Source: Apostichopus japonicus
Lineage: Eukaryota; Echinodermata; Holothuroidea; Aspidochirotida; Stichopodidae
Length of the DNA stretch: 64,000 nt
Direction of reading: 5' to 3'
Assembly: GCF_037975245.1 (NCBI RefSeq)
Contig: NC_092581.1
Span: 16,433,303 to 16,497,302, forward strand
The notes beneath the pieces were generated by a model. That model searched no databases. It was not told where the DNA came from and saw nothing but the letters and a program-made list of their open reading frames with translations. Position numbers and translations under genes: made by a program. Numbering within the stretch: the first letter of the stretch is position 1; every line of letters begins with the position of its first letter. This document shows positions 5,101 to 52,980 of this stretch, piece after piece.

Positions 5101-8100
5101 ACTACACACACCAGGCCATGACACCACAGACAACAGCATACTGGATATCAGAACATCAGCAATATACACACCAAGCCATGACACCACAGACAACAGCATA
5201 CTGGATATCAAAACATCAGCAATATACACACCAAGCCATGACACCACAGACAACAGCATACTGGATATCAGAACATCAGCAACACACACACCAGGCCATG
5301 ACACCACAGACAACAGTATACTGGATATCAGAACATGATCAATACACACACCAGGCCATGACACCACAGAGAACAGCATACTGGATATCAGAACATCAGC
5401 AATATACACACCAGGCCATGACACCACAGACAACAGCATACTGGATATCAGAACATCAGCAATATACACACCAGGCCATGACATCACAGAGAACAGCATA
5501 CTGGATATCAGAACATCAGCAATATACACACCAAGCCATGACACCACAGACAACAGCATACTGGATATCATAACATGAACTACATAACACACCAGGCCAT
5601 GACACCACAGACAACAGTATACTGGATATCAGAACATCAGCAATATACACACCAGGCCATGACACCACAGAGAACAGCATACTGGATATCAGAACATCAG
5701 CAATATACACACCAAGCCATGACACCACAGACAACAGCATACTGGATATCATAACATGAACTACATAACACACCAGGCCATGACACCACAGACAACAGTA
5801 TACTGGATATCAGAACATGATCAATACACACACCAGGCCATGACACCACAGACAACAGTATACTGGATATCATAACATGAACTACATAACACACCAGGCC
5901 ATGACACCACAGACAACAGCATACTGGATATCATAACATGAACTACATAACACACCAGGCCATGACACCACAGACAACAGCATACTGGATATCATAACAT
6001 GAACTACATAACACACCAGGCCATGACACCACAGACAACAGTATACTGGATATCAGAACATCAGCAATATACACACCAAGCTATGACACCACAGACAACA
6101 GCATACTGGATATCATAACATGAACTACATAACACACCAGGCCATGACACCACAGACAACAGCATACTGGATATCATAACATGAACTACATAACACACCA
6201 GGCCATGACACCACAGACAACAGTATACTGGATTTCAGAACATCAGCAATATACACACCAGGCCCTTGACACCAAAACAATAGAAAGATACCAGATGATT
6301 AAACAAACAAATGAACAAATTAAGAGAAACTGACAAACACAAACAAGAGAAAATTTAAGGAAGAAACTATGAATCATTTTCAAATGGGCCTAGTCCCAGT
6401 ATTAAATATGTTAGTAATGCTCTACATGTATGTGTCTAAATAGAAAGTAGAGTAGATTCTATATGACTGACTAAATAAATCTTTTACCAGAAAAGAAATC
6501 CACTGCTAATGATTCCCAATACTTGCCACTTTTTATAAATCAATATTAGCCTTGCTTAAAGCTGTAATACAAATGGTAAAAGTGTTAAAAAAAACACTAA
6601 AAAAAGAGAAAAAATAATAAGAGACAGAAGTAAGCTGTAACATTCATTAGTCCAAGCTACCTTTGAGAGAATCATAAAGTAGTTTCTGAGAGTGTGTAGT
6701 CCATGATAATAGCCCCATATGATTAAATGCTATGTGTTAATGAGAGTGAAAACTCCATCATAACAGCCCAATGGGATTTAACACTATGTGTGAATGAGAG
6801 TGAATACTCCATCATATTAGCCCAACAGGACATAACACTGTGTGTTAATGAGAGTGTATGTACTCCATTGAAATTGACCAATTATGTATTTATGAGAGCT
6901 TTATACATAGTACATTACCAAACTACCATAGTAATAGAATTCTATAACATAGTTTTAATACTTCCACTGTACATATAGTACATAACCAATCTACCATAGT
7001 AATAGAATTCTATAAATATTGCCAATTTACCATACAGAAAGAATTCTATAAGTATTACCAATCTACCATAGTGATAGAATTCTGTAAGTATTGCCAATCT
7101 ACCATAGTGATAGAATTCTATAAGTATTGCCAATCTACCATAAGTAATAGAATTCTATAAGTATTGCCAATCTACCATAGTAACAGAATTCTATAAGTAT
7201 TGCCAATCTTCCATACAGATATAACTCTATAAACATTCCCAATCTACCCTAGTGATAGAATTCTATAAACATTGCTAATCTACCCTAGTAATAGAATTCT
7301 ATAAGTATTGCCAATCTACCATAGTAACAGAATTCTATAAGTATTGCCAATCTACCATAAGTAATAGAATTCTATAAGTATTGCCAATCTACCATAGTAA
7401 CAGAATTCTATAAGTATTGCCAATCTTCCATACAGATATAACTCTATAAACATTCCCAATCTACCCTAGTGATAGAATTCTATAAGTATTGCCAATCTAC
7501 CATAGTGGTAGAACTCTTTACAAGCATTATCAATCTACCATATGTTTAAAATTCTATAAGCATTGCTTTTATGCTTACACTTCATGTATAGTGCATTACC
7601 AATGTACCATATTGCATTATTGATAAAACTTGACAAGCACCACGTTAATACTGTCGTTATAGAATCCTTCAGACATCACTTGCTGATGCTGCTTGTGGTA
7701 AGTATGAAGGCTAATACTCTACCAGAGTTAATGAATCATTCAAGCTTCCACCTTGCTACATTAGTAATATTGTATCATGAGAGAACTAAATGAAAGTAAT
7801 ATGTAAGTATTTCCCCTGAAGTTTGTGGCCTCATTCAATGATGCATGCAAATGATATAGGTCAGAGGTCAAATGTTAGTGATCCGTGCAAACATGCTATG
7901 AGCATTACCCAACTTAAGTGTCTCAATTTCTTAAAATATAAGAACTTACTTTGCTTGGATTCTTCAAGGGGAAAATAGAAATTAAACAAGTTTAATCTAT
8001 TTATCCTTCTGAACTGTGCATCACAAAAAATAAATATCTAGCATAAAAAATTCTCAATTTTAACTACAACTGACTAAACAGAAAGCTTGAAAGGGCAAAT

Positions 8101-11100
8101 AATTTGGATTTGAACATAGTTGTAACTGGAATGGGATTTAAACAGTACCTTGAATAGGATTTGAACACAGCTGTATATTTAAACAGTACACAGAATGGGA
8201 TTTGAACATAGCTGTATTAAAATAGTACCTAGTATGGGATTTAAGTATAGCTGTATTCAAACAGTAACTAGAATGGGATTTGAACATAGTTATAAAATAG
8301 TACCTAGAATGGGATTTGAATATAGCTGTATTCAAACAGTACCTAGAATGGGATTTGAACATAGTTATAAAATAGTACCTAGAATGGGATTTGAACATAG
8401 CTGTATTCAATGGGATTTGAATATGTAGACTGATATTCAAACCAGTAACCTCAGAAATACAAGTACTCTACCAACAGAGTTATTAAATGGAAACCATACA
8501 AAATGACCTTTTTTTGTCTCACATTTACAAGTTACAATGGTTAATTTCAAAACATTTTGAAGTGAAATATGAACAATGAAAATTGCATCTCTCAAATGAG
8601 GGTTATTATTACGATTTCTATCTCTGCCCACGTGCCACTCAATTGAAAACAAAATTTTCGAGAATACCTCCCTCGCTTTCCAGCCTCCTTCATCTCTAAG
8701 ATACGCACCTATTTTTGATGAGGTCAATGCTCATGTTAATGTCAGCATCTGGAGGATAAATGATGAAGATGAATGACCTGATGGAATCTTCATCTGCCTC
8801 TAGGTCCATGACGTCATGGCGCTGAGATTCCACCAAGAATACCTATTAATAAAGAAGGTTTAGATAAATATATAGTAGGGTAAAAGCTGATACTAACAAA
8901 GGAACCTGTCAGTAAAACAATTGAACGAAAAATATGTTTTTGTGATTCATTGATGCGAGAAAGACAAACTCAATACTATGTTTTTAAAAAGTTTTAAGAA
9001 GACTAGACTGATAAACTCAAGACTGAATTGTCATGTGACGTTACTGCGAGCCTTGGTTTTTAGTTTTAGGGAGACTAGAATGATGAGTTCATTGCTATGT
9101 TGTCATGTGATGGTACTTTGAGCCTTGGTTTTGAGTTGTAGGGAGACTAGAATGATTAACTCATTACTATGTTTTTAAGTGACCTTCGAGCCTTGTTTTT
9201 CGTTGTTAGAAGACTAGAATCATGAGTTCATTACTATGTTGTCATGTGACGGTACTTCAAGCAGCCTAGAATTATGAGCTCGTTACTATGTTGTCATGTG
9301 ACGGTACTTCCAGCAGACTAGAATCATGAGCTCATTACTATGTTGTCATGTGACGGTACTTCAAGCAGCCTAGAATTATGAGCTCGTTACTATGTTGTCA
9401 TGTGACGGTACTTCCAGCAGACTAGAATCATGAGCTCATTACTATGTTGTCATGTGACGGTACTTCAAGCAGCCTAGAATTATGAGCTCGTTACTATGTT
9501 GTCATGTGACGGTACTTCCAGCAGACTAGCATCATGAGTTCATTACTATGTTGTCATGTGACGGTACTAGAATCATGAGTTCATTACTATGTTATGATGT
9601 GACGGTTCTTTGAGCAGACTAGAATCATGAGCTCATTACTATGTTGTCATGTGACGGTTCTTCGAGCAGACTAGAATCATGAGCTCATTACTATGTTGTC
9701 ATGTGACGGTACTTCAAGCAGCCTAGAATTATGAGCTCTTTACTATGTTGTGATGTGACGGTTCTTCGAGCAGACTAGAATCATGAGCTCATTACTATGT
9801 TGTCATGTGACGGTACTTCAAGCAGCCTAGAATTATGAGCTCGTTACTATGTTGTCACGTGACGGTACTTCCAGCAGACTAGCATCATGAGTTCATTACT
9901 ATGTTGTCATGTGACGGTACTAGAATCATGAGTTCATTACTATGTTATGATGTGACGGTTCTTTGAGCAGACTAGAATCATGAGCTCATTACTATGTTGT
10001 CATGTGACGGTTCTTCGAGCAGACTAGAATCATGAGCTCATTACTATGTTGTCATGTGACGGTACTTCAAGCAGCCTAGAATTATGAGCTCTTTACTATG
10101 TTGTGATGTGACGGTTCTTCGAGCAGACTAGAATCATGAGCTCATTACTATGTTGTCATGTGACGGTACTTCCAGCAGACTAGCATCATGAGTTCATTAC
10201 TATGTTGTCATGTGACGGTACTAGAATCATGAGCTCATTACTATGTTGTGATGTGACGGTTCTTCGAGCAGACTAGAATCATGAGCTCATTACTATGTTG
10301 TCATGTGACGGTACTTCAAGCAGCCTAGAATTATGAGCTCTTTACTATGTTGTGATGTGACGGTTCTTCGAGCAGACTAGAATCATGAGCTCATTACTAT
10401 GTTGTCATGTGACGGTACTTCAAGCAGCCTAGAATTATGAGCTCGTTACTATGTTGTCACGTGACGGTACTTCCAGCAGACTAGCATCATGAGTTCATTA
10501 CTATGTTGTCATGTGACGGTACTAGAATCATGAGTTCATTACTATGTTATGATGTGACGGTTCTTTGAGCAGCCTAGAATTATGAGCTCTTTACTATGTT
10601 GTGATGTGACGGTTCTTCGAGCAGACTAGAATCATGAGCTCATTACTATGTTGTCATGTGACGGTACTTCAAGCAGCCTAGAATTATGAGCTCTTTACTA
10701 TGTTGTGATGTGACGGTTCTTCGAGCAGACTAGAATCATGAGCTCATTACTATGTTGTCATGTGACGGTACTTCAAGCAGCCTAGAATTATGAGCTCTTT
10801 ACTATGTTGTCACGTGACGGTACTTCCAGCTGACTAGAATCATGAGCTCATTACTATGTTGTCACGTGACGGTACTTCCCGCAGCCTAGACTCATGAGTT
10901 CATTACTATTTACCTGTTGAGCTAACTGCTGCAGACGAAGGTAATCCTCTTCGGTTACATCACGTCGGGCAGCTACTTTGACTTGACAAGTATCTCCCAG
11001 AAACTCCTCAGATCCAGGATGAAAACAGGCAATCAACTGTTTGATGCTTCGAAGGCTAGCTGCCACAGCCCTCTGCATACCTCGACAGGCTACGGTCCAC

Positions 11101-14100
11101 AAATCTTGAGTGAAGACCGGACCAACACTAAGACACATATGTCTGATTGTAAACAAGATCCATATAATGGTCTCAGGGTAGATAAATTGTTCTGAGATTT
11201 TTGAACCTTTACATATGGCTTATTTTTTTCCATATAATGACTCATTCAAGTATGAATATAAATTTTATAAAGAGGAGTCATAGAATACATTAAAAGGAAG
11301 AATAACTAATATAAAAGGAAAAGAAAACATTTTTAAGATGATAGGATATCATATAAAATACATCTATGAATACAAAAGTTAATGTACAAAAAACGATATC
11401 ACAAACAGACTACAACTAACATTCTAAGTGATCGGATTGAATGTATAAAGCAGCACGGTTTATAAAAGAGTTTCTATAAACTTGTGTTCTGTATTTTGGC
11501 AAGATGTGGGGATATTTTAGATTTCTGTTCAATTTGTGCAGGACACTTTCTAGTACAGTATACACAATTCTATCACTATGGTAAATTGGTGATACTTACA
11601 GAATTCTATAACTATGGAAGATTGGTAATGCTTATACATAAAGTGGAAGTTTTAAAGCAATGCTTAACAATTCTACCACTATGGTAGATTGGCAACGCTT
11701 ATAGAATTCTATCACTACAGTAGATTGATAATGCTTATAGAGTTTTATCACTATGATAGATTGGCAATACTTATTAAATTCTATCACTATGGTAGATTGG
11801 CAATACTTATAGAATTCTATCACTATAGCAGATTGGCAATGCTTATTAAATTCTATCACTATGGTAGATTGGTAATACACTATATATAAATATTCTGAGC
11901 TTCTTGTTATTGTTTTAGGCCAAGCTATCAGTTTGTACTCCCTGCCATGCCAACTGTTGTTCTGATCTGTTCACATTAAATCAGTCTTACCTTATACAAG
12001 AACATCCCAGTCGAGCCACAGACTCATTGGCCTGACAGATGCACTCAACCATTAGATCCAAAAACTGTCTTAATATTAATGGAACCCCGACCGAGTCCCC
12101 AGATGAGGGCAACAGATGAGAAAAGTAGTTGACGACAAGATCCGTTGTTAAGCCACACGCATGCTTGAAGTTGGAGGTCGTAAAATCCCAGGTAGAGTGG
12201 ACGTGTCGGTTTCTCCGTACCCAAGATTGCATCATGGGAAGGAGAAGTTCTGTCACTGCAAAAATGGCAAATTCTTCACCTGTACCAACAATGAAAGGTT
12301 GAAAATCTTTTGGAAGAGCTGAAATCACTATCATATGACAAAAATGTTGTTACTCATATTTAAGGCATTATTTCAACCATTTTTACAAAGCTATGAAAAA
12401 TGTTGTTCGCTGATAGCGAAGAGCTAGTAAGCAGTATCTGTGTTAATATGGGTAATGGTCTTACTGTATGCAAACAAGTGTAAAAAGAGTGTAAAAAGAG
12501 GTAAAACATTAAGCAAGCAAAAGTATCGCACTATTGGGGGATATTGTTATTAACTATGTTGTTTGTAACAACTTTATTGCTATTAACTATGAAACATAGA
12601 AGAGTATATCCTTGGCAGTTGGATACTTAGGACCAAATCTTAGCTTTTTCTGATGTAAGAAGCAAAGATTGAATGAAAATGAAAAATTTCTCAGGGTTTA
12701 AACGATAAGAGGCTTTCTAGATAATAAAGAAATCACATAGGTTGTGGTATTTGTTCATTTCTTATTGCTCCTTTTGTTTCTTAAAAGATCTGATTTCTGA
12801 CATTGCTCAGCTCAGTTTCAGCACTCCCACACTGCCTTACACACCAAAACAGCCTCGTGGATTTAATTTCCTGTCTTATGAATAAATAATTTAGGTTTTA
12901 ACTTATCATCTGTCAGAAAACCATACCTGGTGTGTCAATAATGGAATTAAGAACCTCATACAATAGCTCTAGGGTTGGTGGTTGGTACTTCTGTGGACAG
13001 GTAGACACAGCGCCAGTTAACCCCTCTAAGAGGAGAAACCACACCCTCATTAGACCAGAGTCATCATCTACTGACTCCACAAGAACATGCTGAAAGAGGA
13101 TGGGACCGCACTTTTCTGCCTCTGGTTGAAGGCTGACCGGGCTGTAAGAGGATGGAAGTATTGACTTAATAAAGAAAGAACATTGTCTTTCATCTAGTGA
13201 TTTCAAATTTAAAATGAAATAGTGGCAAATACTATAAAAATAAAGAAGCTGGCCTCATTCATTTGAGCAATCCTGACAGGAGCATGTTCTAAACCAGATA
13301 GACTCCTTAGATGGTTAGATAGTTACATGGAACCACACATATGTAGAAAAATTCATCCAATTGTAGGCAAAAACAGACTAAGACTTAACATAGTGTAAAC
13401 AGCAAGGCAAATAACACTAAGAAGAAAAATGTGTGTAAATTTCAAAACTGAGGAAATGCTGACTTAAGGGTAATTGTACATGCCTGCCACACATTATCAG
13501 GGACTGTTTATATAAACCAGTAAGAAGGCCTGACGTTTCGATCTAGCTGGATCTTCTTCAGAGGCTGAATGTCGGTGAGCCTCATTCTGTGAGCCTCATT
13601 CAGCCTCTGGAGAAGATCCTGCTTGGATCGAAACATCGGGCCCTCTTACTTTTACACATTCTCTTACATATAGGCTCTTTAGTGGATAAGCAATTTGCTA
13701 ACAGTTTTTGTTTTATTTTTAAATATACCAGTGTTCATTATGTGAGCACATTACATGTGCACATTATCAGGATAAACAGAAAGTGAAAAAGAAATAAAAA
13801 CCGTACTAAATCTGTAATTTTAGTTCATATATTAGGTCAGATTGGATGTTACTAACTTCTACTGAATTTTAAAAAAATCTCTGGTGAGAAATGCATGTCC
13901 CCGCTGTGCATTTAATCCTGGTTACACAATGTGACCGGATTCAAGATTTGTAAATGATCTAACCACTTCTGCTACATACCTTTGTGGAGCACTGCTTTGG
14001 CTGACTGTTTCGCTAGCTCCTAATTTGATAGACTGTGATCCTCTGAACAGAGGATGTGCGGGCATGCTGTAGATAGTCGCAAGAATCTTGTGGCATCGAT

Positions 14101-17100: not shown

Positions 17101-20100
17101 TTAAGATTTAGCTTTAAAGCAGCTTCTTCAAACAATCTGTATGTAAAATGGAAAGACATTTTAAAAACCATGTGTACAGACGATTAAAGTACAATGTAAT
17201 AGAAATCTAAAAAACTTCATACTTGCCAAAATGAATGAACTTTGTGCAAATTTGACTGTAACATAAAATCTAGTTAAAGAGCAGAAGAATTACTTAATTC
17301 ACAATTTGTCACTTTTCAGCCTTTTCCTACATATATTTACACAATTTTTTTGAATATTTTCTTCACTTTTTAGATCTCTCGCAATTCTTAAATTTTTTTG
17401 CATACCTTTACATTCTTCTTAAATTTTTAAATTCTTAATTTTTTTTATATATCTTCATCACATATTTTTTTTAATTTCTTGCTCATATTTATTACGGAGC
17501 AGGAGCAAGGTTTTGATTTTCGATGTGTAATATTTTTATACATTGGTTGAATAAATGATTTGAATTTGAATTGAGAAATGGTCACAAAGAGGGGAACCCT
17601 GATAGACCCAGCCAATCAATAGACTCAACACAACTTGTCACGACATATCCAAAGTATGTTTCTTTTACATGAATCCATTACTTTGTAAAAAAACTTCAAA
17701 CTAATCATGCAAAAGCTGATTAAATCAAATCAATTTGACAATTATGACTGAATTTTTAGTTATGAAAGTCACAATAACTGAACAGCATGCTACAGTCGTT
17801 AACATTATGCTCAATAGTAGGACCAAATCATAGCCATTCATGAATTTTCTCTAGGGCTACAGTTGACGAACATGGGCATGACTGAAATGCTGGTTTTGAA
17901 AGTATCTCCATTGCTGGATTTTTCAGACATTTTGCAGAAAATGTTTCTATAGTTTTCGGAGTTTGTGATCCAAATACCAAGTTATCTCTCATGCATCCTG
18001 AGCTATGATTGGTTGGCGTGGGAATCTGGTGGGTTGGCGTGGGAATCTGGCGGGTTGGCGTGGGAATCTGGCGGGTTGGCGTGGGAATCTGGCGGGTTGG
18101 CGTGGGAATCTGGCGGGTTGGCGTGGGAATCTGGCGGGTTGGCATGGGAATCTGGTGGGTTGTGGCGCAGTCCTCAATGGAGGACCATGAGTAGTGGGCC
18201 TTAAAAGTTTGTTGACCACTACTCTAGCGCAAACTAACCTGTCAACCGATGAGGATAAGCTACAGAGCACTTTGGAAGCACAACTAGGGGCCAGGAGTGC
18301 TCCAGTCGCAGAGCTTATCTCAAATCCTTTCTCCATTTTCTCTTTCTTAACGATGTCTTGAACCGACTGATCTGAGTCGAAGTCCGACTGATCTGGAGGA
18401 AGACTGACTGGTGTGTACGCCGGAGCGGAATCGAGGTTGCCAAGGTCAAAGGTCGCCTCGCCTGCTTTGGAATCATTCACTTTTGGGATGATAGTCTGAG
18501 GAGAAGGAACTCCCTTGTCCTTGGTAAACTGTGTGTGCTCTAACTGGGACACGTATGCACAACATCTGTATGAGAGAAGAGAAACAGATGTAGAGGAATT
18601 GCCGTAACTAAGACCACATACTGATAAGATGATCAACTGTAGAGATCTAAAAGGTACAGGGATCTATTGACTTCAAGTATCCGTGTGTTTTTTCACAAAT
18701 ATTTTTATAAATAAAATTTAAAATAAAATTAAAAAAAGAAATAATATGTTTTCACACGTACTAATAATAATATAATAATGATAATCAGCAGTTATTTTTA
18801 CGATGCTTAAGTGACCACAAATGTGGGAGAAACCAGCAAGTCTTATGGAATTGCAACTTACACGTCGGGTGGCTTCCAATTCAACATTTTAACTCAAATT
18901 TGGAGTCATTTCACATGAGAAAACTGTTGATTGCTCTTGGATGAAAAACCAACCTTACTAAGACACCGCCAGGTATCGAACCCGGAACCTCCCGATTGCT
19001 AAGCCTCATTGCTTCAAATGCCACCGCCTTTATCCACTCGGCCACAGCACCGGCACTATTAGATTAGTAATTCAAGTGACCTAGTTCAAATTCACATCTA
19101 ATTCTCTTTCATAGCTCCATAGTTTGGAATTGTACGGATAGCTACATATGCTACATATTCTATTGTTCTTTCCTGGTTATGTTGATGATAAATGCTTCCT
19201 ATCCTCACCTCTAGGTATAGCCCCACACCACTCTGTATCATAAAGACTATAATATATCGGAATAACTGACAATTGTTATAACTTCTACCTGTGTATTATT
19301 TCCCCCTGACAACGATTGCATAAATATTTAGTAGTGTCAATCATTGATAAACACACAATGCAAGCTGCTGGGACATATTTACTACCAAATTATGAGGATA
19401 TTTATTTACTGTCAGATGAATTTGACTCCATTGAGCAGCAGGGAATTAAAATAGTTGTCTGACAACATGCAGGGATGTGCCCAGGATTTCCTGAGTGCCA
19501 GGTATACTGATCGCCGTCCTGGGGGAGGGGGTGTCCCCCTCCCCTTTGGGAAATTTTTCGATTTTTGAAGTTGCTCAGATGCCAAATGCTGGCACTTGTG
19601 TAGCTTTTTTAAGCACATACACAAGTACTAGTTTTGCTAACTAACATTTTTTAATTTTTTTTTTTTAGTGAAATATATTACGTACCTGGTAAAAGTTATT
19701 AGTTTGTTTGAAAGAGATTTTAACAAGGGACCGATTGAGAGCCGTAAATAATGTTTCTCGCATGCGTAATTGATGCATCATTAGTCTGTATGATTTTGGC
19801 ATAGGCTAGGCCAATTTATGTTGAATATATTGTTAGGAATGTCAGGATTTTAGATGAAAATAGTGCTGGGTGGGATTCACAAGTTTTAAGACAGTGCTGG
19901 GCGGTAATTTTTAGTGCTGGGCGGGCCGCCCAGTGCCGCACAGCATGGGCACATCCCTGAACATGCTTTCAACGTTCCGCAACTCTGCCTGCTCAATCTT
20001 TCTCAATTTATGAGAATATTACTCATACAAGCAGAATTGGGACATAACTGACTCAAAACAGGGATTTAAGTGTAATCCCTACAGACATGCTTCTAGCTGT

Positions 20101-23100
20101 TTGCAACTAAAACATACCCCTTTTAATCCCAACATGACTAAAACTATTAACCCCTTATAGACTTAATGCGTGGACTACTCAAAACAAAACAGGGCCTTTG
20201 TTTAATGATTATACCTGAAGACATGCTTCAAGCTGTTTGCAACTAATACATACCCATTCTAATCCCAACATGACTTAAACTATTCACCCTTATAGACTAA
20301 TGCATCAACTACTCAAGACAAAACGGGGCCTTATAATAATTATACCTGAAGACATGCTTCAAGCTGTTTGCAACTAAAACATACCCCTTCTAATCCCAAC
20401 ATGAATAAAACTAATAATCCCTTATAGACTAATGCCTCCGCTACTCAAGGCAAAACTGGGCCTTATGATAATTATACCTGAAGACATGCTTCAAGCTGTT
20501 TGCAACTAATACATACTCCTTCTAATCCCAACATGACTAAAACTATTAATCCCTTATAGACTAATGCGTCGACTACTTAAGACAAAACGGGGCCTTATGA
20601 TAATTATACCTGAAGACATGCTTCAAGCTGTTTGCAACTAATACATACTCCTTCTAATCCCAACATGACTAAAACTATGAATCCCTTATAGACTAATGTG
20701 TCGACTACTCAAGACAAAAACCGGGGCCTTTATTTAATAATTATACCTGAAGACATGCTTCAAGCTGTTTGCAACTAATACATACTCCTTTTAATCCCAA
20801 CATGACTAAAACTATTAATCCCTTATAGACTAATGCGTCGACTACTCAAGACAAAACCAGGCCTTATAATAATTATACCTGAAGACATGCTTCTAGCTGT
20901 TTGCAACTAAAACATACCCCTTCTAATCCCAACATGACTAAAACTATTCACCCTTATAGACTAATGCATCGAATACTCAAGACAAAACCAGGCCTCTTTA
21001 TTTAATAATTATACCGGAAGACATGCTTCAAGCTGTTTGCAACTAATACATACCCATTCTAATCCCAACATGACTAAAAATATTCACCCTTTTAGACTAA
21101 TGCATCAACTACTCAAGACAAAACCAGGCCTCTTTATTTAATATTTATACCTGAAGACATGCTTCCAACACTCTGCTGAGTGACTGCCCATTTCTACACC
21201 CATAGACAGTATAGCATCCATACTAAGTGCATGCACGGCGTGAAGTCTCATTCCCGATGGTGTTCTGCTGGGCCATACTTTACGAGATCTATTCCCCTTT
21301 TCGTTGCTGCTGTCCGATCCCGTGTCGGTGCAGGAGGCTTCAGCTAGATGTGCAAATACTCCTGCGCATCTCTTTTGTAAGCCTGACAGACAAAAAAAAT
21401 GGTTAAAATATTGTTAGATTTGGTACTAATATTCCTGAGAGAAATTACATGTGTATTAAACAGTGAATGTTTCTTTAAACATGTACAGTATGTAACATTA
21501 TTGCTATAAACATAGACTAGGCATGTTCCTGTTTACTGACTGCTCTATGGAATATAAAGAGACTCATATTTGAAAGCAAAATTATATTGAATTCATATTG
21601 AATAATATCCAAAAAGAAAGAGGACTCTTAGGCACCTTCAAACATACATATGAAATATATGACTTCAAAGCATATCAGAAAGGTGTGGGGGATGCCATGT
21701 AACAACATGAAATACAAGGAAAAGGGTTCAATGATGACAAAAGTGTTATGGGAAACCACGCCCCCTCCCACCCCACAACAATGACAAAAAGTAAATAAAA
21801 CTGGTGGCCTAACTTGCATAAATATTTACCATAAAATATTATTAAAACCATAAAATTTGAAATCTCCCAATTTCTTATCTTTCTTTCAATACTAATGTCA
21901 TGATACAGGATATGCCCCTAAATTCATCTTCCATACAACAAAATGAAATAAAAGGAAAAGGGTTCAATGATGACAACATTGTTATGAGAAAGCCATGCCC
22001 CCCCCCCTTGAAAATTATAACAAAACTGGGGCCTAACTTGCATAAATATTTACCATAAAACCATAAATTTGAAATCTCCAATTTATTATCTTTCTTTTAA
22101 TACTAAGGTCATGATACAGGATATTCCCCTAAATTCATCCTTAAAATTTACAAACAAATTCCTATTCCTTATGGTGTGGCTTAGAAAGGGGTCAATGATT
22201 CACTGACCTAATTTACAGGTAAGTTCTGCAGCTTTGCGTAGTCCATCTAAGCTGAGACAAAGGACATCTTCATCTCTGCTCTTGCTCTCTTTGGATGAAC
22301 TTTCTTGACCTTTGACCTCCACTGACAGATTAGTACTTATTGGGACTGATAACACACTGAGGATGTTCTGCCAAAATGCTGTCAAGATATGTCTTGTGAA
22401 CTTTGACCCTGATAGAGAGGAAAAGAAGAACAACTCTCATTAATATAGAAAACTATTAATATGTTAGGTGTGACAGGGAGAAAAACATACTTTAATCTGT
22501 ATGAATAATGCTTTTACCCTGTTTTATTTTGTTATATTTACTTAAATAGATAGATTTAGTAGACACAAAGTATGCGAAGGTCTAAGGTTAAATTTCTTTC
22601 ATCAAAATTTTTCTCTACCAGTTCTGAATATTGCAACTTATTAAATTCTTAATGAGCAGAATAAAGCTCAATCAATAAATGAATTAACCAATCGATGCAA
22701 ACTGTCCAGCGTTCAAAAGTGAAATACAAATTCATCTTTGGTGGCCTAATTATAAAGACAAAACCAAATATTCCTTTCTATTGGTTTGCAAATTTACAGT
22801 ACTCCAAGACACCAACATCTTCACAGGTGGTTTTTGTAATGGAATTAGAAATCAAATTATCATCTCTCTCGATGAATCTATTTCAAAATAAAATGAATTT
22901 TTGGCTTCTTACCTGCCTGAGGAGCTGGGTGATGATCTGCTAGAAAAGCCTGAGCAGACTGGTCATATAAAAATGATGCTTCCTGTAACAACTGCCCTCC
23001 AACAGCTTGGCTTCCCATGCCATCAATATCTATCAAATAAATATTCAAGATTGGTTAAATTTATGCAGGATTATTATCATTTTATTTCTTGGTGGGGGGG

Positions 23101-38100: not shown

Positions 38101-41100
38101 GACTTTCAAACAATAGTACAAACCATTAAGAAACTATAAAACGTAGGCATTTTCCTCAGTTCCCTTGTCACCAGTGGCAGTAGTGAAAAAGACCAGACAT
38201 GCTAGGCGTAATCATAAGTTGCCTGAAAGTAGAGTACCTTCCGACTAGTTTAATGATGCACATGCATTGAGAAAGATTTGGGTTTAATTCCGGGTAAATA
38301 TATTGGTGGAAAAAAATTCTTTTCCAACTCATTGGTAAAAAAGCCTGGTAAAAACTGGTAAGTGTCAGAATACCTGCTATCATTAAAACTATCTGTGGGT
38401 TTAATTTCTGGATGGTCATGTTAAGTCAAAATTTCACTTTTCCAAACAACTTCACTTAGGATATCCCAGTTAAGGCATGCAATGTTATTCAAATCTTATT
38501 ACCAGTTATGGATCCTAACTAGCGGCCAGGAAGAAATAGATTGATAGAGCACAGAATCTTTAAGCTTTCAGCAAGCTGAGTGGCCATTATTAACTTAAAT
38601 TGTGCAGCCTTTGTACCCTCAAAGGACTAATTTCACGTGAAACAAATAATCCCTGTTAGTTTTGATGTGTCAGTAGCCAGTGTGTTGGGATGGTACGACT
38701 GCGCTACAACTCACGTAGAAATACTATATGACAGAAACTGTTCCAATCCAGAATAATACTGCTAGCTACTGCTAGTAAGTCTGTATAAATTAATAACTAT
38801 TGCCTTGGGCATAGCTGCAGTGATTAGTTACGTTTGGCATATTAATAAAGTTATAAAATTGATTTAATTAATTCTGCTGGTAAACACGAACAGACGATTA
38901 CTCTAAATGCAAACATTTCTTTGACAATTTTCAGAGAATCTTTATTTTATTTGCTCATGGCTGTGACAACAGTCTGTGTTATGCAGTGTATTATGATTGC
39001 TTCACAGACCCAAGACCCAATTATCTTCCTTAAATATCTCAGAAAGAATTGCAGATTGTAAGATGATCATAAAGAAAGTTTCATCTTCCTCTATTTTGCC
39101 TGCTTTACTCAGAAGAGATAAACCAACAAATTATTTTACATTTTCTTGAATTTTGGTTCTCAAAATTTCCGTTTTTCACTGCAATTTAAAAGTTCGTTTT
39201 GCAATCAATGCGATAGTCTGTCTGACATCATCAATGGATCATAATACTATCACAAAACCAGAAAGCCAGCTGGTTTTGTGATTCCTTGCCATATAATTTC
39301 AAATAACTATCTGACTAATGTAGAGCAAGTGAGTTAAACTTGTCCAAGAATTAAGAGAGAACCAGAAAAAAATCAGAGATTATTTCCAGCTTGTATTTGT
39401 AGCACTCAAGTGTAGGTAATCAACCATTTCATTCACTGGTAAGGATGTTAAAGTATAGAATTTTTATTCCAAAATGTTCCAATATGCAGAAAGACCAGTC
39501 TTCCTACGTGAAATATAGACACAGCTCTGCCACCTAGCAACCATCCCTTTAATGTTAGTGTTATTAATGAATAAGAGCTCTACATAATATTGTTTATACA
39601 CTGTAAAATATTCTCACAGCTTAGCTAAAGCAAAAGTCATCAGTTTAATCATAGAGAAAATGGCCAATTTTGAGTTCATTTGAGACCTTAGGGGGAGATA
39701 AACGATCAATCTTTTATGTAAGTACCTTCTACTAAAATTGTATCTAAGTAATAAGGTGAAAGAGAGTGCTAACCTCTAAAATCCTGAGCAGTGACTTCAC
39801 ATCCATCTTGCAACCAGCTGAGCAAGTCATGACCAGAAGTAGCTAAATAAAATAGAAAAAAACGAAATTTACTTGGAACTTCCTTCCTCCAATCAAGGAT
39901 ATGGTGCTCTCACCAATCATTTCTTAACATAAGAATCATGTGCTTCAAGATGAGGAGATAACCTTCCTTCTTCATGAACCTTTTCCTTTTACTTTTTCAG
40001 GTTATCTTATTTGAGCTACCTTTATATGAGATGTGAATTTGACACAAGCCTGAACTCCCACCCTCAATTTCTGTCTTGCATATCTCCTAGAAGCTTAGCT
40101 TTCCAGCTAACCAGTTAACTCTACCCCACACAGACCTTCCATATCTATCCTATCTCCTAGAAGCTTAGCCTTCCAGTTAACCAATTAACTCTACCCCACC
40201 TAGACCTTCCATATCTATCTTATCTCATAGAGCTTAGCCTTCCAGCTAACTCTACCCCACCCAGACCTTCCATATCTATCCTATCTCCTAGAAGCTTAGC
40301 CTTCCAGCTAACCAGTTAACTCTACCCCACCCAGACCTTCCATATCTATCCTATCTCCTAGAAGCCTAGCCTCCAGCTAACCAGTTTAACTCTACCCCAC
40401 CCAGACCTTCCATTCATATATGCTGCGTGGTATCCAACCTTTAATATTTAAACTTGCCCTCCCACTGCTCCCCAGCGAACAAATACCCTCCACCCTACCA
40501 CGGCTCCAGGCATGAATGCTAAATTCTATCCTATCTTAATTAGCTCTACTTGCCTCTCCAATAGCCCTCCAACCGACCTATACCCTCCACCCTACCTGGC
40601 TCCAGGCATGAATGTTAAATTCTATCCTATCTTAATTAGCTCTACTTGCCCCTCCCATAGCCCTCCAACCAACCAATACCCTCCACCCCACCTGGCTCCA
40701 GGCATGAATGCTAAAGTGTATCCTATGTAAAATAGCTCTACTTTCCCCTCCCATAGCCCTCCAACCAACCAATACCCTCCACCCCACCTGGCTCCAGGCA
40801 TAAATGCTAAAGTGTATCCTATGTAAAATAGCTCTACTTTCCCCTCCCATAGCCCTCCAACCAACCAATACCCTCCACTCCACCTGGCTCCAGGCATGAA
40901 TGCTAAAGTGTATCCTATGTAAAATAGCTCTACTTTCCCCTCCCATAGCCCTCCAACCAACCAATACCCTCCACTCCACCTGGCTCCAGGCATGAATGCT
41001 AAAGTGTATCCTATGTAAAATAGCTCTACTTTCCCCTCCCATAGCCCTCCAACCAACCAATACCCTCCACTCCACCTGGCTCCAGGCATGAATGCTAAAG

Positions 41101-42868
41101 TGTATCCTATGTAAAATAGCTCTACTTTCCCCTCCCATAGCCCTCCAACCAACCAATACCCTCCACTCCACCTGGCTCCAGGCATGAATGCTAAAGTGTA
41201 TCCTATGTAAAATAGCTCTACTTTCCCCTCCCATAGCCCTCCAACCAACCAATACCCTCCACCCCACCTGGCTCCAGGCATGAATGCTAAAGTGTATCCT
41301 ATGTAAAATAGCTCTACTTTCCCCTCCCATAGCCTTCCAACCAACCAATACCCTCCACTCCACCTGGCTCCAGGCATGAATGCTAAAGTGTATCCTATCT
41401 AAAATAGCTCTACTTGCCCGTCCCATAGCCCTCCAACCGACCTTTACCCTCTACCTCGACCAGGCCTCACATTAACACAAGTGATATCCTACCTTAATCA
41501 TCTCAACTTGCACATCTTCATTCATGTTTGGTGTGTTAACTAACGCCTCCAGTACCTGGTTGACTAACACATCATCTTCTGTCTCATTCTCATCTCCAAG
41601 TAACGACTGGAAACGGTTTTCAGCAAGTATTTTCTGGAAGATTCATGACAGGTCAAAGGAAAACAAATGACAGTTACGTGCGGTTTTATAAAAGCAGAAA
41701 CACTTTTTTTAAGATTTCACTCAAGGCTGGAGCACAAAAAACTAGTAAAAATTGTTCTTATTCAATTCAGTTTGAACCACTTGAATAATTACCCGAGTAC
41801 TTGTATACATGTTTTATGTTACTAATATCTTTTACAAACTCTACTACACACATCAAACTTCATAACACCAGCTGTACGCATTTTCAACAGCATTTTCATT
41901 TTTGTACAATTACTGTATGCCAACCTTGCTATTCTGTGCAATACTTATTCCAAGATTTTTCCAACAAGAGTCCAATGTTTCTAATACCCTGTAGCTATTA
42001 CATACTTTTTCCCCTATAGTTAACCATTTTCCCTGTGGTTATCTCTCTTAATTCCCATATGGGTACCCAATATTGCACCTACATGCATCCCATGTTTATA
42101 TAACAACTTTCTCCTTACCTGTAATCCTGTAACTCCCAGGTTAGACACTTTGTTGTTCTTTGCTTCCAATGCTAATTTTATTGGAAGGAGGCAGATTTGT
42201 CTTAGTTCACTGGCTTTCTTGGATTGCCTGGCCTTCTCACCTAGAAGGGTTGCTGTGGAGATAACATAAAAACTGACATTACAAGGTGCACCAAACTAGA
42301 TCACACAAGACGTGCTTTAAAAGTAATTAAACTTAAGTGTACACATTTCGTAGCAAACCCAATCGCAAACCATAAAGAATCCTCTCACATGGGTACTGTA
42401 TGTAAGACAAAGGATGATATTACAGAAATCCAGCCTTTATGCAATTTTTTTATCTTTGCAATTGCTGATTTATTCTGTTTTAACTTATGAGTGCAGCAAA
42501 ATTAGCACAACTATTTGACAATTTATCATCCAGTATATGTTTGACATATCTGAACGGAATGAAAAAACATGATATATTAGATTTTTTTTAATTTTCAGCT
42601 CTATTTTCATAGTTTGATGAACTTTGCAACTTTTTTTTCTAAATGTAAAGGATGACTTCTCAATACATAAAGGTATTACAGATATGCAATCTGCACAAAG
42701 TTAGAAGTGGATACAAATCATGCAACAAATCAAATCAAAACTAACTTTGCCTACAGCCCGTTACAAATTAAACTACATACCTTTGGCCTGAGTCGCAGCT
42801 TCCTTCAAGGCAGTCAGCTTGCTGGAGTGTGTTGCCTCTTGAACGATATGAGACAATATTTCTTCCAT
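533..42868 (-). CDS. ARFGEF3: ARFGEF3 (BIG3), BIG-family Sec7-like Arf-GEF homologue, 28 coding exons
   Basis: Whole-gene entry; exons are listed separately. Joining 28 exons gives 6,594 nt (2,198 codons with stop), and every junction is GT..AG with matching phase. The protein is colinear with vertebrate ARFGEF3 from the first residues (MEEIL) to the C-terminal block (VFPSVSQLICHVTNGKVR). Family knowledge: BIG-type proteins have N-terminal DCB/HUS, a Sec7 region and C-terminal HDS repeats. In vertebrate BIG3 the Sec7 region is degenerate and lacks the catalytic glutamate, and the protein acts as a regulator and scaffold on secretory granules. Here the Sec7-equivalent region is about residues 590-780, HUS/HDS-like helical repeats lie on both sides, and the last exon has an acidic run (about 1955-1995) and a basic run (about 2040). 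BIG1/BIG2 are less likely because the C-terminal extension matches BIG3. Function is inferred from family only. A possible further 5' exon lies at 44535-44603. Confidence 0.93.
2148..4671. other. Proximal part of ARFGEF3 intron 27
   Basis: No coding exon is recognised. It holds an inverted-repeat element at about 3864-4222, a short CA run near 3602 and otherwise AT-rich sequence. Confidence 0.6.
3864..4222. mobile_element. Small inverted-repeat element (MITE-like)
   Basis: The left end TTAAAGGCATTGAAGACTCG is mirrored by a right end whose complement reads TTAAAGGGTGTGAAGACTTG. Both ends begin with TTAA, which might be a target duplication. No transposase is visible. Confidence 0.5.
4672..6263. 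repeat. 60-bp tandem satellite, about 26 copies
   Basis: Unit around CTGGATATCAGAACATCAGC, AATACACACACCAGGCCATG, ACACCACAGACAACAGCATA. The proximal part has a strict 60-bp period; after 5570 a 61-bp variant (CATAACATGAACTACATAAC) alternates. Because 60 is a multiple of three, long spurious open frames (over 200 codons) exist on both strands. It lies inside ARFGEF3 intron 27. Confidence 0.95.
6685..6866. repeat. About 57-bp minisatellite, three copies
   Basis: Repeated motif GTTAATGAGAGTGAA.ACTCCATCATA..AGCCC. Intronic. Confidence 0.75.
6905..7570. repeat. 36-bp satellite, about 18 copies (orientation 1)
   Basis: Unit GTAATAGAATTCTATAAGTA, TTGCCAATCTACCATA, with an EcoRI-type GAATTC in most copies. 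The same family appears reverse-complemented at 11571-11881. Confidence 0.93.
8106..8425. repeat. Minisatellite, ~35-50 bp units
   Basis: Repeats of GAATGGGATTTGAACATAGC followed by TGTATTCAAACAGTACCTA; unit length varies because of internal deletions. Confidence 0.85.
8709..8842 (-). CDS. ARFGEF3: ARFGEF3 coding exon 27
   Basis: 134 nt between TTAATAG and GTGCGT, encoding VFLVESQRHDVMDLEADED and DADINMSIDLIKNR. It aligns to the variable segment VFMLDTQ..LIIELPPDE of the family. Support comes mainly from the opening VF.L..Q, phase (0 to 2) and position. Confidence 0.85.
8995..10907. repeat. About 50-bp satellite with higher-order structure, ARFGEF3 intron 26
   Basis: Unit around GCAGACTAGAATCATGAGCT, CATTACTATGTTGTCATGTG, ACGGTACTTC. 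Unit types differ (AGACTAGAATC, AGCCTAGAATT, a shortened CGGTACTAGAATC form) and recur in a fixed order; one compound block at 9527 repeats at 9885 and 10487. The array runs up to seven bases from the splice donor of exon 26. Confidence 0.95.
10914..11142 (-). CDS. ARFGEF3: ARFGEF3 coding exon 26
   Basis: 229 nt between AATCAG and GTAAAT. Encodes GPVFTQDLWTVACRGMQRA and LIACFHPGSEEFLGDTCQVK (family GPVFTEEMWRLACCALQDA and LLGCFHSGTESFSGEGCQV). Ends on a codon boundary. A satellite array begins seven bases after its donor. Confidence 0.96.
11571..11881. repeat. 36-bp satellite (orientation 2)
   Basis: Unit CAATACTTATAGAATTCTAT, CACTATGGTAGATTGG, the reverse complement of the array at 6905-7570. 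About eight copies, in ARFGEF3 intron 25's neighbourhood just downstream of exon 25 in transcript order. Confidence 0.92.
11991..12279 (-). CDS. ARFGEF3: ARFGEF3 coding exon 25
   Basis: 289 nt between GTACAG and GTAAGA. Encodes FAVTELLLPMMQSWVRR, NFKHACGLTTDLVV and ARLGCSCIR; the FKHA.GL and GCSCIR motifs are typical of the C-terminal part of BIG proteins. Ends in phase 2. Confidence 0.96.
12927..13141 (-). CDS. ARFGEF3: ARFGEF3 coding exon 24
   Basis: 215 nt between CTTACAG and GTATGG. Encodes DDDSGLMRVWFLLLEGLTGA and QPPTLELLYEVLNSIIDTPG, equivalent to DDDTGLIEVWIILLEQLTAA and QPPTLDLLFELLRDVTKTPG. Ends in phase 1. Confidence 0.96.
13519..13650. repeat. Palindrome with two CTGAAGA..GAAAC hairpin motifs
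   Basis: The arms 13519-13571 and 13597-13650 are imperfect reverse complements of about 53 bases. Each arm carries CTG(A/G)AGAA, a 4-5 bp GATC(C) stem and GAAAC. Between them GAGCCTCATTCTGT is followed by another GAGCCTCATT. It lies in ARFGEF3 intron 23. Confidence 0.8.
13980..14241 (-). CDS. ARFGEF3: ARFGEF3 coding exon 23
   Basis: 262 nt between TTCATAG and GTATGT. A Pro/Ser-rich start, then CLPALNYLHRCHKILATIYS, matching CLPALDYLRRCSQLLAKIYK. Ends in phase 2. Confidence 0.95.
14912..15185 (-). CDS. ARFGEF3: ARFGEF3 coding exon 22
   Basis: 274 nt between TCCATAG and GTAAGA. Encodes SGWRPLFGALRAVRFSQSA and NVFEAFLNTDNAAVFANAA, equivalent to SGWRPLFSALETV and DVFEAFLNTDNIQVFANAA. Ends in phase 1. 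Confidence 0.96.
16169..16348 (-). CDS. ARFGEF3: ARFGEF3 coding exon 21
   Basis: 180 nt between TTATAG and GTGAGG. Encodes AACHKDRHVSKRATAIIHDV and HFHEALLKPFESLLCLELC followed by DVQDQ, all matching the HDS region of BIG3. Phase 0 at both ends. Confidence 0.96.
16842..17136 (-). CDS. ARFGEF3: ARFGEF3 coding exon 20
   Basis: 295 nt between ATACAG and GTAAAT. Encodes LFEEAALKLNLKALLSFLQE and RPLLHLMQAWSMVAPHLVE, matching LFEDATDKLNLMALGGFLYQ and RPLLHVMRCWSLVAPHLVE. Ends on a codon boundary. Confidence 0.96.
18008..18165. repeat. 21-bp GC-rich minisatellite, seven copies
   Basis: Unit GGCGTGGGAATCTGGCGGGTT. A period divisible by three leaves all frames open over a short span. It starts about 70 bases inside intron 19. 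Confidence 0.93.
18239..18565 (-). CDS. ARFGEF3: ARFGEF3 coding exon 19
   Basis: 327 nt between ATACAG and GTTAGT. Starts CCAYVSQLEHTQF (family VCEYVGTLEHNHF), runs through a variable Pro/Ser/Asp linker with SVQDIVKKE, and ends KVLCSLSSSVDR (family KVVLTLSTQADR). Phase 2 at both ends. Confidence 0.94.
18765..19058 (-). mobile_element. tRNA-derived SINE
   Basis: Read on the minus strand: box A TGGCCGAGTGG (19044-19034), a class II (Ser/Leu-like) spacer and box B GGTTCGATACC (18982-18972). A body of about 190 bases follows, then a TATTATTATTAG-type tail. Polymerase III promoter boxes plus body and tail fit a SINE rather than a functional tRNA gene. Confidence 0.75.
19470..19959. mobile_element. 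Non-autonomous DNA transposon with 14-bp terminal inverted repeats
   Basis: Starts CAGGGATGTGCCCA and ends with its exact complement TGGGCACATCCCTG. It is flanked directly on both sides by AACATG (19464-19469 and 19960-19965). The CAGGG end resembles hAT elements, though those usually make 8-bp duplications. No transposase is visible. Confidence 0.8.
20065..21145. repeat. 131-137-bp tandem array carrying exon 18 splice-donor copies
   Basis: Eight units in ARFGEF3 intron 18. Copies of TATACCTGAAGACATGCTTC start at 20210, 20341, 20473, 20605, 20742, 20874 and 21010 (the last with one change); a degraded one lies near 20075. The same 20 bases form the true exon 18/intron 18 junction at 21146-21165, 136 bases after the last copy. 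Confidence 0.95.
21151..21382 (-). CDS. ARFGEF3: ARFGEF3 coding exon 18
   Basis: 232 nt between CTGTCAG and GTATAA. Encodes ALSMDAILSMGVEMGSHSAE and CWKHVF, equivalent to VLCMEAILSVGLEMGSHNPD and CWPHVF. Its last 15 bases and donor are the seed of a tandem array in the next intron: seven spaced copies precede it on the plus strand. Confidence 0.96.
21690..22175. repeat. Tandem duplication of ~250 bp
   Basis: Two diverged copies share GGAAAAGGGTTCAATGATGA, GCCTAACTTGCATAAATATT and GTCATGATACAGGATAT, about 250 bases apart, in ARFGEF3 intron 17. Confidence 0.85.
22208..22408 (-). CDS. ARFGEF3: ARFGEF3 coding exon 17
   Basis: 201 nt between CTATCAG and GTCAGT. Encodes FTRHILTAFWQNILSVLSVP and CLSLDGLRKAAELTCKLG; the second matches CMSLDGLRKAARLSCALG almost residue for residue. 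Phase 1 at both ends. Confidence 0.96.
22913..23029 (-). CDS. ARFGEF3: ARFGEF3 coding exon 16
   Basis: 117 nt between TTGATAG and GTAAGA. Encodes DIDGMGSQAVGGQLLQEAS, matching DIDGLESSAIGGQLMASA. Phase 1 at both ends. Confidence 0.93.
23878..24043 (-). CDS. ARFGEF3: ARFGEF3 coding exon 15
   Basis: 166 nt between CAACAG and GTATCC. Encodes GVLVYLSATWLGELYRILIT and RDLLGEAGYH, equivalent to GVLMVFSQAWIEELYHQV and RNMLGEAGYW. Ends in phase 1. Confidence 0.95.
24213..24600. repeat. About 180-bp repeat carrying degraded exon 14 ends and donors
   Basis: Segments like CATACCTGTATAAGAGGTAG (at 24216, 24399 and 24573) resemble the exon 14 junction CATACCTGTGTCAAGGGTAA. They are interleaved with TAACCTGGCTAAGAGGTAAG-type segments (24341, 24519). 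All lie in ARFGEF3 intron 14. Confidence 0.75.
24807..24988 (-). CDS. ARFGEF3: ARFGEF3 coding exon 14
   Basis: 182 nt between AACATAG and GTATGT. Encodes INADGIYVSTCYGLLLNMKL (family: MNADSLYTAAHCALLLNLKL) and ends NNPGNLPLTQ on a codon boundary. Degraded copies of this exon end plus its donor occur several times in the following intron. Confidence 0.93.
25130..25425. repeat. TGATATCAC-rich repeat
   Basis: Many short units of TGATATCACA and its complement, so the tract is rich in short palindromes. In ARFGEF3 intron 13. Confidence 0.85.
25744..25769. repeat. Poly-C tract
   Basis: Long run of C; similar G or C runs occur at 23093, 29450, 55040 and 57860. Exact lengths are unreliable in sequencing. 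Confidence 0.8.
25929..26222 (-). CDS. ARFGEF3: ARFGEF3 coding exon 13 (start of Sec7-like region)
   Basis: 294 nt between TTTTTAG and GTATAA. After a Gly-rich linker it encodes LVALLPRILGMMDVTEVDEA and LQQFASKFVAG, clearly matching LEGLLPRLLSLSNVEEVDTA and LQNFASTFCSG. This opens the degenerate Sec7 region of BIG3. Confidence 0.95.
26662..26817 (-). CDS. ARFGEF3: ARFGEF3 coding exon 12
   Basis: 156 nt between TATCAG and GTAAGT. Low-complexity acidic segment rich in Glu, Asp, Ser and Lys (for example EKDEDDLGEREEAEG). It takes the place of the longer variable Ser-rich linker of the vertebrate protein. Supported by phase and splice sites. Confidence 0.8.
27465..27935. mobile_element. Degraded inverted-repeat element
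   Basis: Left AAGGTGGCATACTCC and right (complement) AAGGTAGCATACGCC face each other about 465 bases apart in ARFGEF3 intron 11. No coding capacity is seen. Confidence 0.45.
28367..28560 (-). CDS. ARFGEF3: ARFGEF3 coding exon 11
   Basis: 194 nt between TTTTCAG and GTAATG. Encodes LIDGITEAAESK and LLTSLEQLHQGQGIRPQQ, equivalent to LIMDGMTEAC and LDELSQGKGLSEGQ of the family. Ends in phase 1. Confidence 0.93.
28830..29312. repeat. AT-rich ATGATATGTAA repeat
   Basis: Roughly 480 bases of irregular GATATGTAATGATATG units, prone to slippage. In ARFGEF3 intron 10. Confidence 0.93.
29673..29773 (-). CDS. ARFGEF3: ARFGEF3 coding exon 10
   Basis: 101 nt between TTTGAAG and GTAAGT, encoding VISTPEKLLDIAMPPSIED and RAAHLDLLKL; the latter matches KSHLDLLKL of vertebrate BIG3. 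Ends in phase 2. Confidence 0.93.
30563..30896 (-). CDS. ARFGEF3: ARFGEF3 coding exon 9
   Basis: 334 nt between TCTTTAG and GTAAGG. Contains ELCPTLIGILGIPKDEK and LASLYHRILLFPPPSQRNEA, two strongly conserved BIG3 blocks of the HUS region, joined by a Ser-rich linker. A tRNA-like repeat lies about 60 nt upstream in the intron and is not part of the coding sequence. Confidence 0.95.
30960..31107 (-). mobile_element. Short tRNA-like element with inverted ends and hammerhead-like core
   Basis: On the minus strand: AATAACACACCAG at both ends in inverted orientation, box A TGGTCGAGTGG (31083-31073), perfect box B GGTTCGATTCC (31040-31030), then CTGATGA, a GUC/GAC stem with a 9-base loop, and GAAAC (31020-30994). 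SINE-like in its promoter; ribozyme activity is unproven. It is about 60 bases from exon 9. Confidence 0.7.
31829..31989. mobile_element. About 160-bp MITE-like inverted repeat
   Basis: Left ATTCTGACCGAGGACTT and right (complement) ATTCAGACCGAGGACCT; internal CCGAGGAC copies with GAATTC also mirror each other. Confidence 0.55.
32119..32253 (-). CDS. ARFGEF3: ARFGEF3 coding exon 8
   Basis: 135 nt between TTGAAG and GTGAGT, encoding LLTLQLEAIHTTLSNVLQ and FQKCIW. Aligns to the LLYLECILSVLSS..TDLIW segment of the family. Phase 2 at both ends. Confidence 0.9.
32987..33056 (-). CDS. ARFGEF3: ARFGEF3 coding exon 7
   Basis: 70 nt between TTCATAG and GTGAGT, encoding ADIIEVVSFLCTKVSETHK. Equivalent to DDVVSVLTVLCEKLQA of the vertebrate protein. 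Ends in phase 2. Confidence 0.87.
33954..34002 (-). CDS. ARFGEF3: ARFGEF3 coding exon 6
   Basis: 49 nt between CATCAG and GTAAGA, encoding PKQMIESSPTKENPSK and ending in phase 1. It falls in the poorly conserved linker before the VVSFLCTK block. It is supported by splice signals and phase rather than sequence identity. Confidence 0.75.
34003..37161. other. ARFGEF3 intron 5, no recognised feature
   Basis: About 3.2 kb of AT-rich sequence between exons 5 and 6. Only poly-C/G runs near 34780 and 35110 stand out. No coding exon or clear transposon seen. Confidence 0.6.
37162..37272 (-). CDS. ARFGEF3: ARFGEF3 coding exon 5
   Basis: 111 nt (37 codons) ending in HRTAQ|GTAAAT. It encodes ACQVTVLQIVTDIALMSHR. 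I chose the acceptor CACCAG at 37273 rather than the nearer CTCTCAG because only the former keeps phase 0 with exon 4. Confidence 0.85.
37273..39773. other. ARFGEF3 intron 4, little recognised
   Basis: About 2.5 kb. A GGGA microsatellite sits at 37651-37677. Nothing else is identified. Confidence 0.6.
39774..39842 (-). CDS. ARFGEF3: ARFGEF3 coding exon 4
   Basis: 69 nt (23 codons) between TATTTAG and GTTAGC. It encodes LLLVMTCSAGCKMDVKSLLR, continuing the DCB helical repeats. Short, but phase and position agree with the neighbouring exons. Confidence 0.85.
40085..40425. repeat. About 66-bp minisatellite, five copies
   Basis: Unit with TCCTAGAAGCTTAGCCTTCC, AGCTAACCAGTTAACTCTAC and CCCACCCAGACCTTCCATAT. 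Its TATCCTATCTCC portion resembles part of the adjoining 96-bp array. Confidence 0.9.
40430..41484. repeat. 96-bp tandem array in register with the exon 3 donor
   Basis: TATCCT landmarks at 40527, 40623, 40719, 40815, 40911, 41007, 41103, 41199, 41295 and 41391 give an exact 96-bp period. The real exon 3 junction shows the same landmark at 41485, 94 bases further. The period (32 codons) leaves long spurious open frames on the minus strand. Confidence 0.95.
41493..41633 (-). CDS. ARFGEF3: ARFGEF3 coding exon 3
   Basis: 141 nt (47 codons), phase 0 at both ends, between TTCCAG and GTAGGA. It ends in NMNEDVQVEMIK, matching SLNEDLQVEVMK of the family. Its last ~20 bases and its donor recur in degraded form in the 96-bp array of the next intron. 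Confidence 0.93.
42119..42252 (-). CDS. ARFGEF3: ARFGEF3 coding exon 2
   Basis: 134 nt between CCACAG and GTAAGG. It encodes LRQICLLPIKLALEAKNNKV, equivalent to the REKCLLPLQLALESKNVK segment of the vertebrate DCB domain, and ends on a codon boundary. Confidence 0.92.
42781..42868 (-). CDS. ARFGEF3: ARFGEF3 coding exon 1
   Basis: Starts at ATG 42868-42866 and encodes MEEILSHIVQEATHSSKL, matching the conserved MEEIL start of vertebrate BIG3 (DCB domain). It ends in phase 1 at AAAG|GTATGT. An in-frame ATG lies 10 codons upstream (42898), and the frame stays open to a possible acceptor before 42925, so this exon may also be an internal one (see 44535-44603). Confidence 0.88.
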
Positions 42869-52717: not shown

Positions 52718-52980
52718 CTAACATAACTTTATTGGGCAATACTGCCAGCGAATTTTCTTGTGGTTTGTAAAACACCAAGGTTTTTTCCGTTTGCTATCCG
52801 GATTGCGGCAGTAATTATGTTCTCCGAGACCGTTCCGTTCGTTCTTGCGCGGTTTGCTACTATACTGTTCGTGTTTGTGAGGCCACTGAGCAGTCCATTT
52901 TTGACAGGTGATGAAATCGTCAGTATAGTTGATCTCGCCACGATATTCTTCCCCCTTTCCAGCTTCACTCTGGAAACATT
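52718..52980 (-). CDS. Astacin gene, kringle-domain exon and stop
   Basis: 263 nt from TTTCGTTCAG to stop TAG. One kringle with six cysteines (CFQ, TCQKW, NYCRNPD, PWC, QYC, KLC) and the diagnostic blocks WPHKHEQ, GLGEHNYCRNPD and KPWCF. The domain is complete and ends the protein. Confidence 0.94.

Follow-up and report, generated by a model that had tools for sequence, protein, structure and literature searches.

Introduction

Minisatellites that duplicate exon-intron boundaries are known as mirages, a name given to them in lancelet Adh3, and are also described in the lancelet globins BflGb6 and BflGb9 and in PGBD5 (PMC3087553, PMC3902484). According to these papers, mirage units measure 10–72 bp in Adh3, 60 and 108 bp in PGBD5 and 150–160 bp in the globins. 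Many units keep AG/GT, those of BflGb6 are 81–100% identical, and concerted evolution is described; the authors report undisturbed splicing and unstable array length. They treat exon-edge minisatellites as a phenomenon of lancelets and suggest that new introns may come from them (PMC3087553, PMC3902484). The Rogers model, in which introns arise when a stretch holding AG|GT sites is duplicated in tandem, is cited in one of these papers (PMC3087553). The stretch analysed here, referred to as the window, comprises 64,000 nucleotides of Apostichopus japonicus (contig NC_092581.1, positions 16,433,303 to 16,497,302) and carries on its minus strand a tandem array that crosses the splice donor at window position 21151. 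The host gene was taken to be ARFGEF3 (BIG3), based on exon-by-exon alignment with the human ARFGEF3 sequence.

Results

The exon concerned (21382–21151, minus strand; exon 18 in the numbering of the initial annotation) lies between the acceptor TCTGTCAG|GCTTAC and the donor TCTTCAG|GTATAA. Its end reads GAAGCATGTCTTCAG|GTATAA, with 21151 as the last exon base. A tandem array of eight units of 131–137 bp and an 11-base partial unit (20083–21165, minus strand) was detected with Tandem Repeats Finder (TRF; period 132) and by alignment. Full units start at 21165, 21029, 20893, 20761, 20624, 20492, 20360 and 20229, the partial unit at 20093, and the eight full units are pairwise 86–96% identical. 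The array is in register with the real exon-intron boundary, each full unit opening with 15 exon bases and a donor. The first unit is opened by the true junction itself (21146–21165, minus strand; last 15 exon bases and first five intron bases). Seven candidate decoy donors follow on the same strand, decoy junction 1 at 21010–21029 (CCG|GTATAA) and decoy junctions 2 to 7, all with CAG|GTATAA, at 20874–20893, 20742–20761, 20605–20624, 20473–20492, 20341–20360 and 20210–20229. GT is kept in 8/8 full units and CAG|GT in 7/8. The partial last unit, GAAGCATGTCT (20083–20093, minus strand), is followed by TAG|GG and has no donor.

The junction 20-mer TATACCTGAAGACATGCTTC was matched eight times in the window at ≤3 mismatches (seven times exactly, and at 21010 with a single mismatch), with 0.02 matches expected by chance. 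This search and the unit alignment bear out what the initial annotation had described, namely seven further junction copies at 131–137 bp spacing, six of them identical over 20 bases, and a true junction that belongs to the array register as the unit at 21165. Its statement that every full copy keeps GT likewise holds; the context of the odd copy had been given as CGG and is corrected to CCG|GTATAA.

The array lies in the adjoining intron, and the frame is intact when the exon-attached donor is used. A genome search skipping very common words located the 132-bp unit at no second locus in 671.6 Mb. No other window of the unit is as well conserved as its 22-column core, in which 2 changes were counted; 166 of 20000 random column sets were as low. 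Some BLAST alignments extend to 20054, below the TRF edge at 20083. Further degenerate units past 20083 were considered and dropped (20082–19940 against three units; 224/1000, 32/500 and 452/500 shuffles at least equal). The score of a degenerate core farther down (AAGCATG--TTCAGGGAT) was matched by 14/500 shuffles. A putative tRNA-like, SINE-like (short interspersed nuclear element) stretch lies in the same intron (18900–19060, minus strand).

Donors were scored by U1 pairing energy and by a position weight matrix built on the remaining donors of the gene. With CAG|GTATAA, the real donor ties for ranks nine and ten of the 20 gene donors with donor 25929, which has the identical nine bases. 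Six decoys score the same as the real donor, so that local sequence cannot separate it from these copies; the seventh (CCG|GTATAA) is weaker. U1 complementarity, which the initial annotation had named as a measure for the copies, ranked them in this same way. With any of the seven decoys a stop is met three codons beyond the true exon end, regardless of the length added, in agreement with the ladder of donor-like sites and the early stops upon decoy use that had been noted from the sequence. In units 21165, 21029 and 20761 (20761–21165, minus strand), AATAAA stands ~13 bases after the donor with a T-rich stretch behind it, and may serve as a signal for intronic polyadenylation next to each U1-like site.

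When exon 21382–21151 is spliced to the exon at 18565, with the acceptor of the array-bearing intron 2.6 kb from the donor, the join is in frame, reads ...ECWKHVFRCCAYVSQLEH... and continues as ARFGEF3. A protein search of the genome with these two exons gave matches in this window only. The exon end encodes W-K-H-V-F-R-C. At the corresponding place a Sec7-domain protein in PDB (8ucq) has W-K-D-V-L-L-C (local piece 1.5 bits, not significant alone; neighbouring piece 28 bits), and human ARFGEF3 has W-P-H-V-F-R-V. Because the exon-end residues are common to relatives and the unit was found at this locus only, the array most likely originated from the exon, with the intron copies descending from its end. 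By this comparison an exon end older than the array is supported, though not proven.

In the window 21 exons of ARFGEF3 were placed, and 20 donors and 18 acceptors were assigned to them. Arrays with exon homology cross 2/20 of these donors, 21151 and 41493. The second array (40457–41516, minus strand; TRF 40457–41455, homology across the junction) has a 96-bp unit and was seeded by intron sequence together with the terminal 24 bases of the exon whose donor lies at 41493. Its best unit matches 19/24 exon bases; the best score was reached by 0/500 shuffles and the mean score by 6/500. In the nine aligned downstream copies AT stands in place of the GT found at the exon, which is kept in 0/9. A third array (9028–10909, minus strand; TRF, merged rows) abuts donor 10914, placed by splice site and protein similarity, from intron position +5. 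Its exon part is not significant (134/500 shuffles reach the mean exon-tail score and 170/500 the best), and it was classed as abutting only. Donor 24807, with a single weak 30-base match across the junction, was left out of the count. None of the 18 ARFGEF3 acceptors is crossed by an array; two weak matches both lie within introns. Array edges fell at donors in 3/11 arrays against 0.40 expected by rotation (P ~0.01), a clustering given little weight, as the -30 to +45 window was picked post hoc.

Apparently one and the same 36-bp minisatellite, judged from consensus units, is present in two introns in opposite orientations (6986–7566 and 11566–11876), and some minisatellites in this gene may be dispersed. 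A 21-bp array (18011–18162, minus strand) begins 77 bases past donor 18239; the frame of the upstream exon is open throughout it.

For a sample beyond this gene, the genome was searched for Pkinase, and among the 134 exon matches listed the donor sides of 20, picked for a match ending inside the domain, were examined. Whichever site scored best close to the end of the match served as the donor; in two cases (L030, L041) that score was poor. Arrays cross 2/20 of these donors, both belonging to a CDK11-like exon (C11:6.33 Mb and C11:9.61 Mb; L046, L047). Their 70-bp unit combines ~60 bases from the exon end with ~10 from the intron; there are 12 units at one locus and 11 at the other, all with GT. 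The unit peptide YTPIVVTLWYRAPELLLA aligns opposite YTPVVVTLWYRAPELLLG of a PDB CDK11B chain, and the exon is therefore plainly the source there; NCBIfam returned for the CDK11-like peptide only two bacterial kinase models, far below cut-offs. The two loci lie 3.3 Mb apart on the same contig, are equal at 95/96 exon bases before the array, and have the post-array intron and a 67-bp variant unit in common, and were for these shared parts counted as one origin copied. Their 12 versus 11 units within one assembly are suggestive of length instability, in a gene other than ARFGEF3. The L040 kinase donor, with a single weak match across the junction, was left out, and no array crosses any of 10 kinase-exon acceptor sides.

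In total, 4/40 donors (three origins) and 0/28 acceptors are crossed, a difference not significant by itself (~0.11). An uncurated edge scan by open reading frame (ORF) and splice score over a 220 kb sample, which uses no homology evidence, yielded 2 rows from one site on the donor side and 10 rows from 8 sites on the acceptor side. This counts against a donor bias, though it rests on no homology. Minisatellites are abundant in this genome generally; the 220 kb sampled hold 42 arrays with a period of at least 20. The entire 10 kb of L017 (C10:11000001–11010000) is a 22-bp satellite, and period-22 arrays also occur in L007, L008, L013 and L053.

The middle part of the ARFGEF3 gene encodes a Sec7-like_HDS domain (minus strand of the window). 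Ten consecutive model exons, from 22408 to 10914, read open through their joins with no stop. Between the exon with donor 10914 and the last exon (2147) the join is out of frame. The joined chain has 22 stops, every one within the last exon, so that a model exon is probably missing or misplaced there. By alignment to the human protein, no ARFGEF3 exon was found between 41490 and ~30980, which makes the number 18 for exon 21382–21151 provisional. A neighbouring gene region (52721–56393, minus strand) encodes kringle and astacin protease domains. Mitochondrial contig C35 (16,099 bp) has the order cox1, nad4L, cox2, atp6, cox3, nad3, nad4, nad5, reversed nad6, cob, tRNA-Phe, nad1, nad2 (nad1 and nad2 on the cox1 strand), and AAA is read as asparagine at conserved cox1 sites. 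We take this gene order and code to be the echinoderm arrangement of sea urchins and sea cucumbers, not that of lancelets.

Discussion

Judged from its sequence, the array after donor 21151 is very probably a mirage-type minisatellite that is tolerated by its host gene and was seeded by duplication across the exon end. A tandem duplication would have spanned the 3' end of the exon, the splice donor and ~117 intron bases. The extra copies lie wholly inside the intron and would for that reason be nearly neutral while splicing keeps to the exon-attached donor, presumably the one used in vivo. Unequal exchange or replication slippage could have raised the number to eight copies and kept them alike. 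Two origins had been offered in the initial annotation, seeding by a duplication across the junction and homogenisation of the junction with the array. The former is favoured because the exon-end residues are common to relatives, the unit is found at one locus and other exons of the genome gave rise to arrays unrelated to this one. Homogenisation may also be at work, in view of the conserved unit core.

Several points weigh against this account. The direction of copying is read from protein similarity. Identical 11 bases stand at both array ends, a pattern equally compatible with recombination between two short repeats that were already in place. A core with fewer changes than the remainder of the unit is not what pure neutrality predicts; it could reflect homogenisation with a copy that coding constraint holds fixed, or selection.

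Selection would be expected if the decoy donors were maintained for a function, binding the U1 small nuclear ribonucleoprotein (snRNP) and thereby regulating splicing of the exon or suppressing premature intronic polyadenylation. The conserved core, the GT present in all seven decoys and the identity of six of them with the real junction from -15 to +5 are in line with such a role, as is AATAAA with its T-rich stretch just after the donor in 3/8 units. The hexamer is, however, expected by chance in AT-rich introns and lacking in 5/8 units, and the replacement of GT by AT in the nine aligned copies of the 41493 array speaks against a general need for decoys. Published mirages, moreover, are reported to leave regular mRNA splicing intact (PMC3087553). 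From the sequence at hand we regard a maintained decoy function as unlikely.

Seeding from the exon would be reversed if a foreign or dispersed minisatellite had arrived next to the exon, whose edge had then been converted to match it. The 36-bp family, present in ARFGEF3 in two places and both orientations, makes dispersal conceivable, but the single locus of the 132-bp unit (very common words skipped), exon-end residues common to relatives and CDK11-like arrays made mainly of conserved coding sequence make such an arrival very improbable. Slightly less probable still is an assembly artefact or a chance resemblance: the array is known from a single assembly, but its full units differ by 4–14%, unlike a stuttered assembly, and eight junction matches were seen where chance predicts 0.02.

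The three independently seeded exon-edge arrays in an echinoderm suggest a phenomenon of greater age or wider occurrence than its lancelet examples. A doubtful proposition, made a little less likely by an edge scan that gave more acceptor-like than donor-like edges, is that 5' splice sites of this genome repeatedly give birth to minisatellites, as they do in lancelets, and that acceptors do so less often. If true, it would point to a pathway tied to donors and common to deuterostomes that copies the ends of exons into introns and supplies numerous decoy donors in the process. The near-identical donors (8 in ARFGEF3; 12 and 11 in the CDK11-like exons) form a natural series for testing donor choice by position alone.

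Among systems outside the lancelets, the human IFI6 (6-16) minisatellite reportedly has a 12-bp unit and multiple splice donors, more than one of which is really used. It resembles the ARFGEF3 array in being built on a splice donor and running into the intron; it differs in that decoy use in ARFGEF3 would truncate the protein. The Rogers model shares with this locus a tandem duplication that includes the donor site, whereas the ARFGEF3 intron was pre-existing, with its acceptor 2.6 kb away, and no new intron is shown.

A literature search on minisatellite, splice site and echinoderm matched only the lancelet PGBD5 paper, most subscription literature lying outside the coverage, and one on sea urchin, tandem duplication and exon-intron boundary matched only work on tunicate glycosyl hydrolases. 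With the lancelet mirages the ARFGEF3 array has in common tandem units of comparable length that hold an exon-intron boundary and keep its splice signals. The host here is an echinoderm, and the junctions crossed are donors only (0/28 acceptor sides), whereas BflGb6 duplicates an acceptor side. The 41493 array differs further in having lost its donors in the aligned downstream copies. Taken together, the ARFGEF3 array most likely belongs to the known mirage kind and, as far as the literature searched shows, is new for the phylum.

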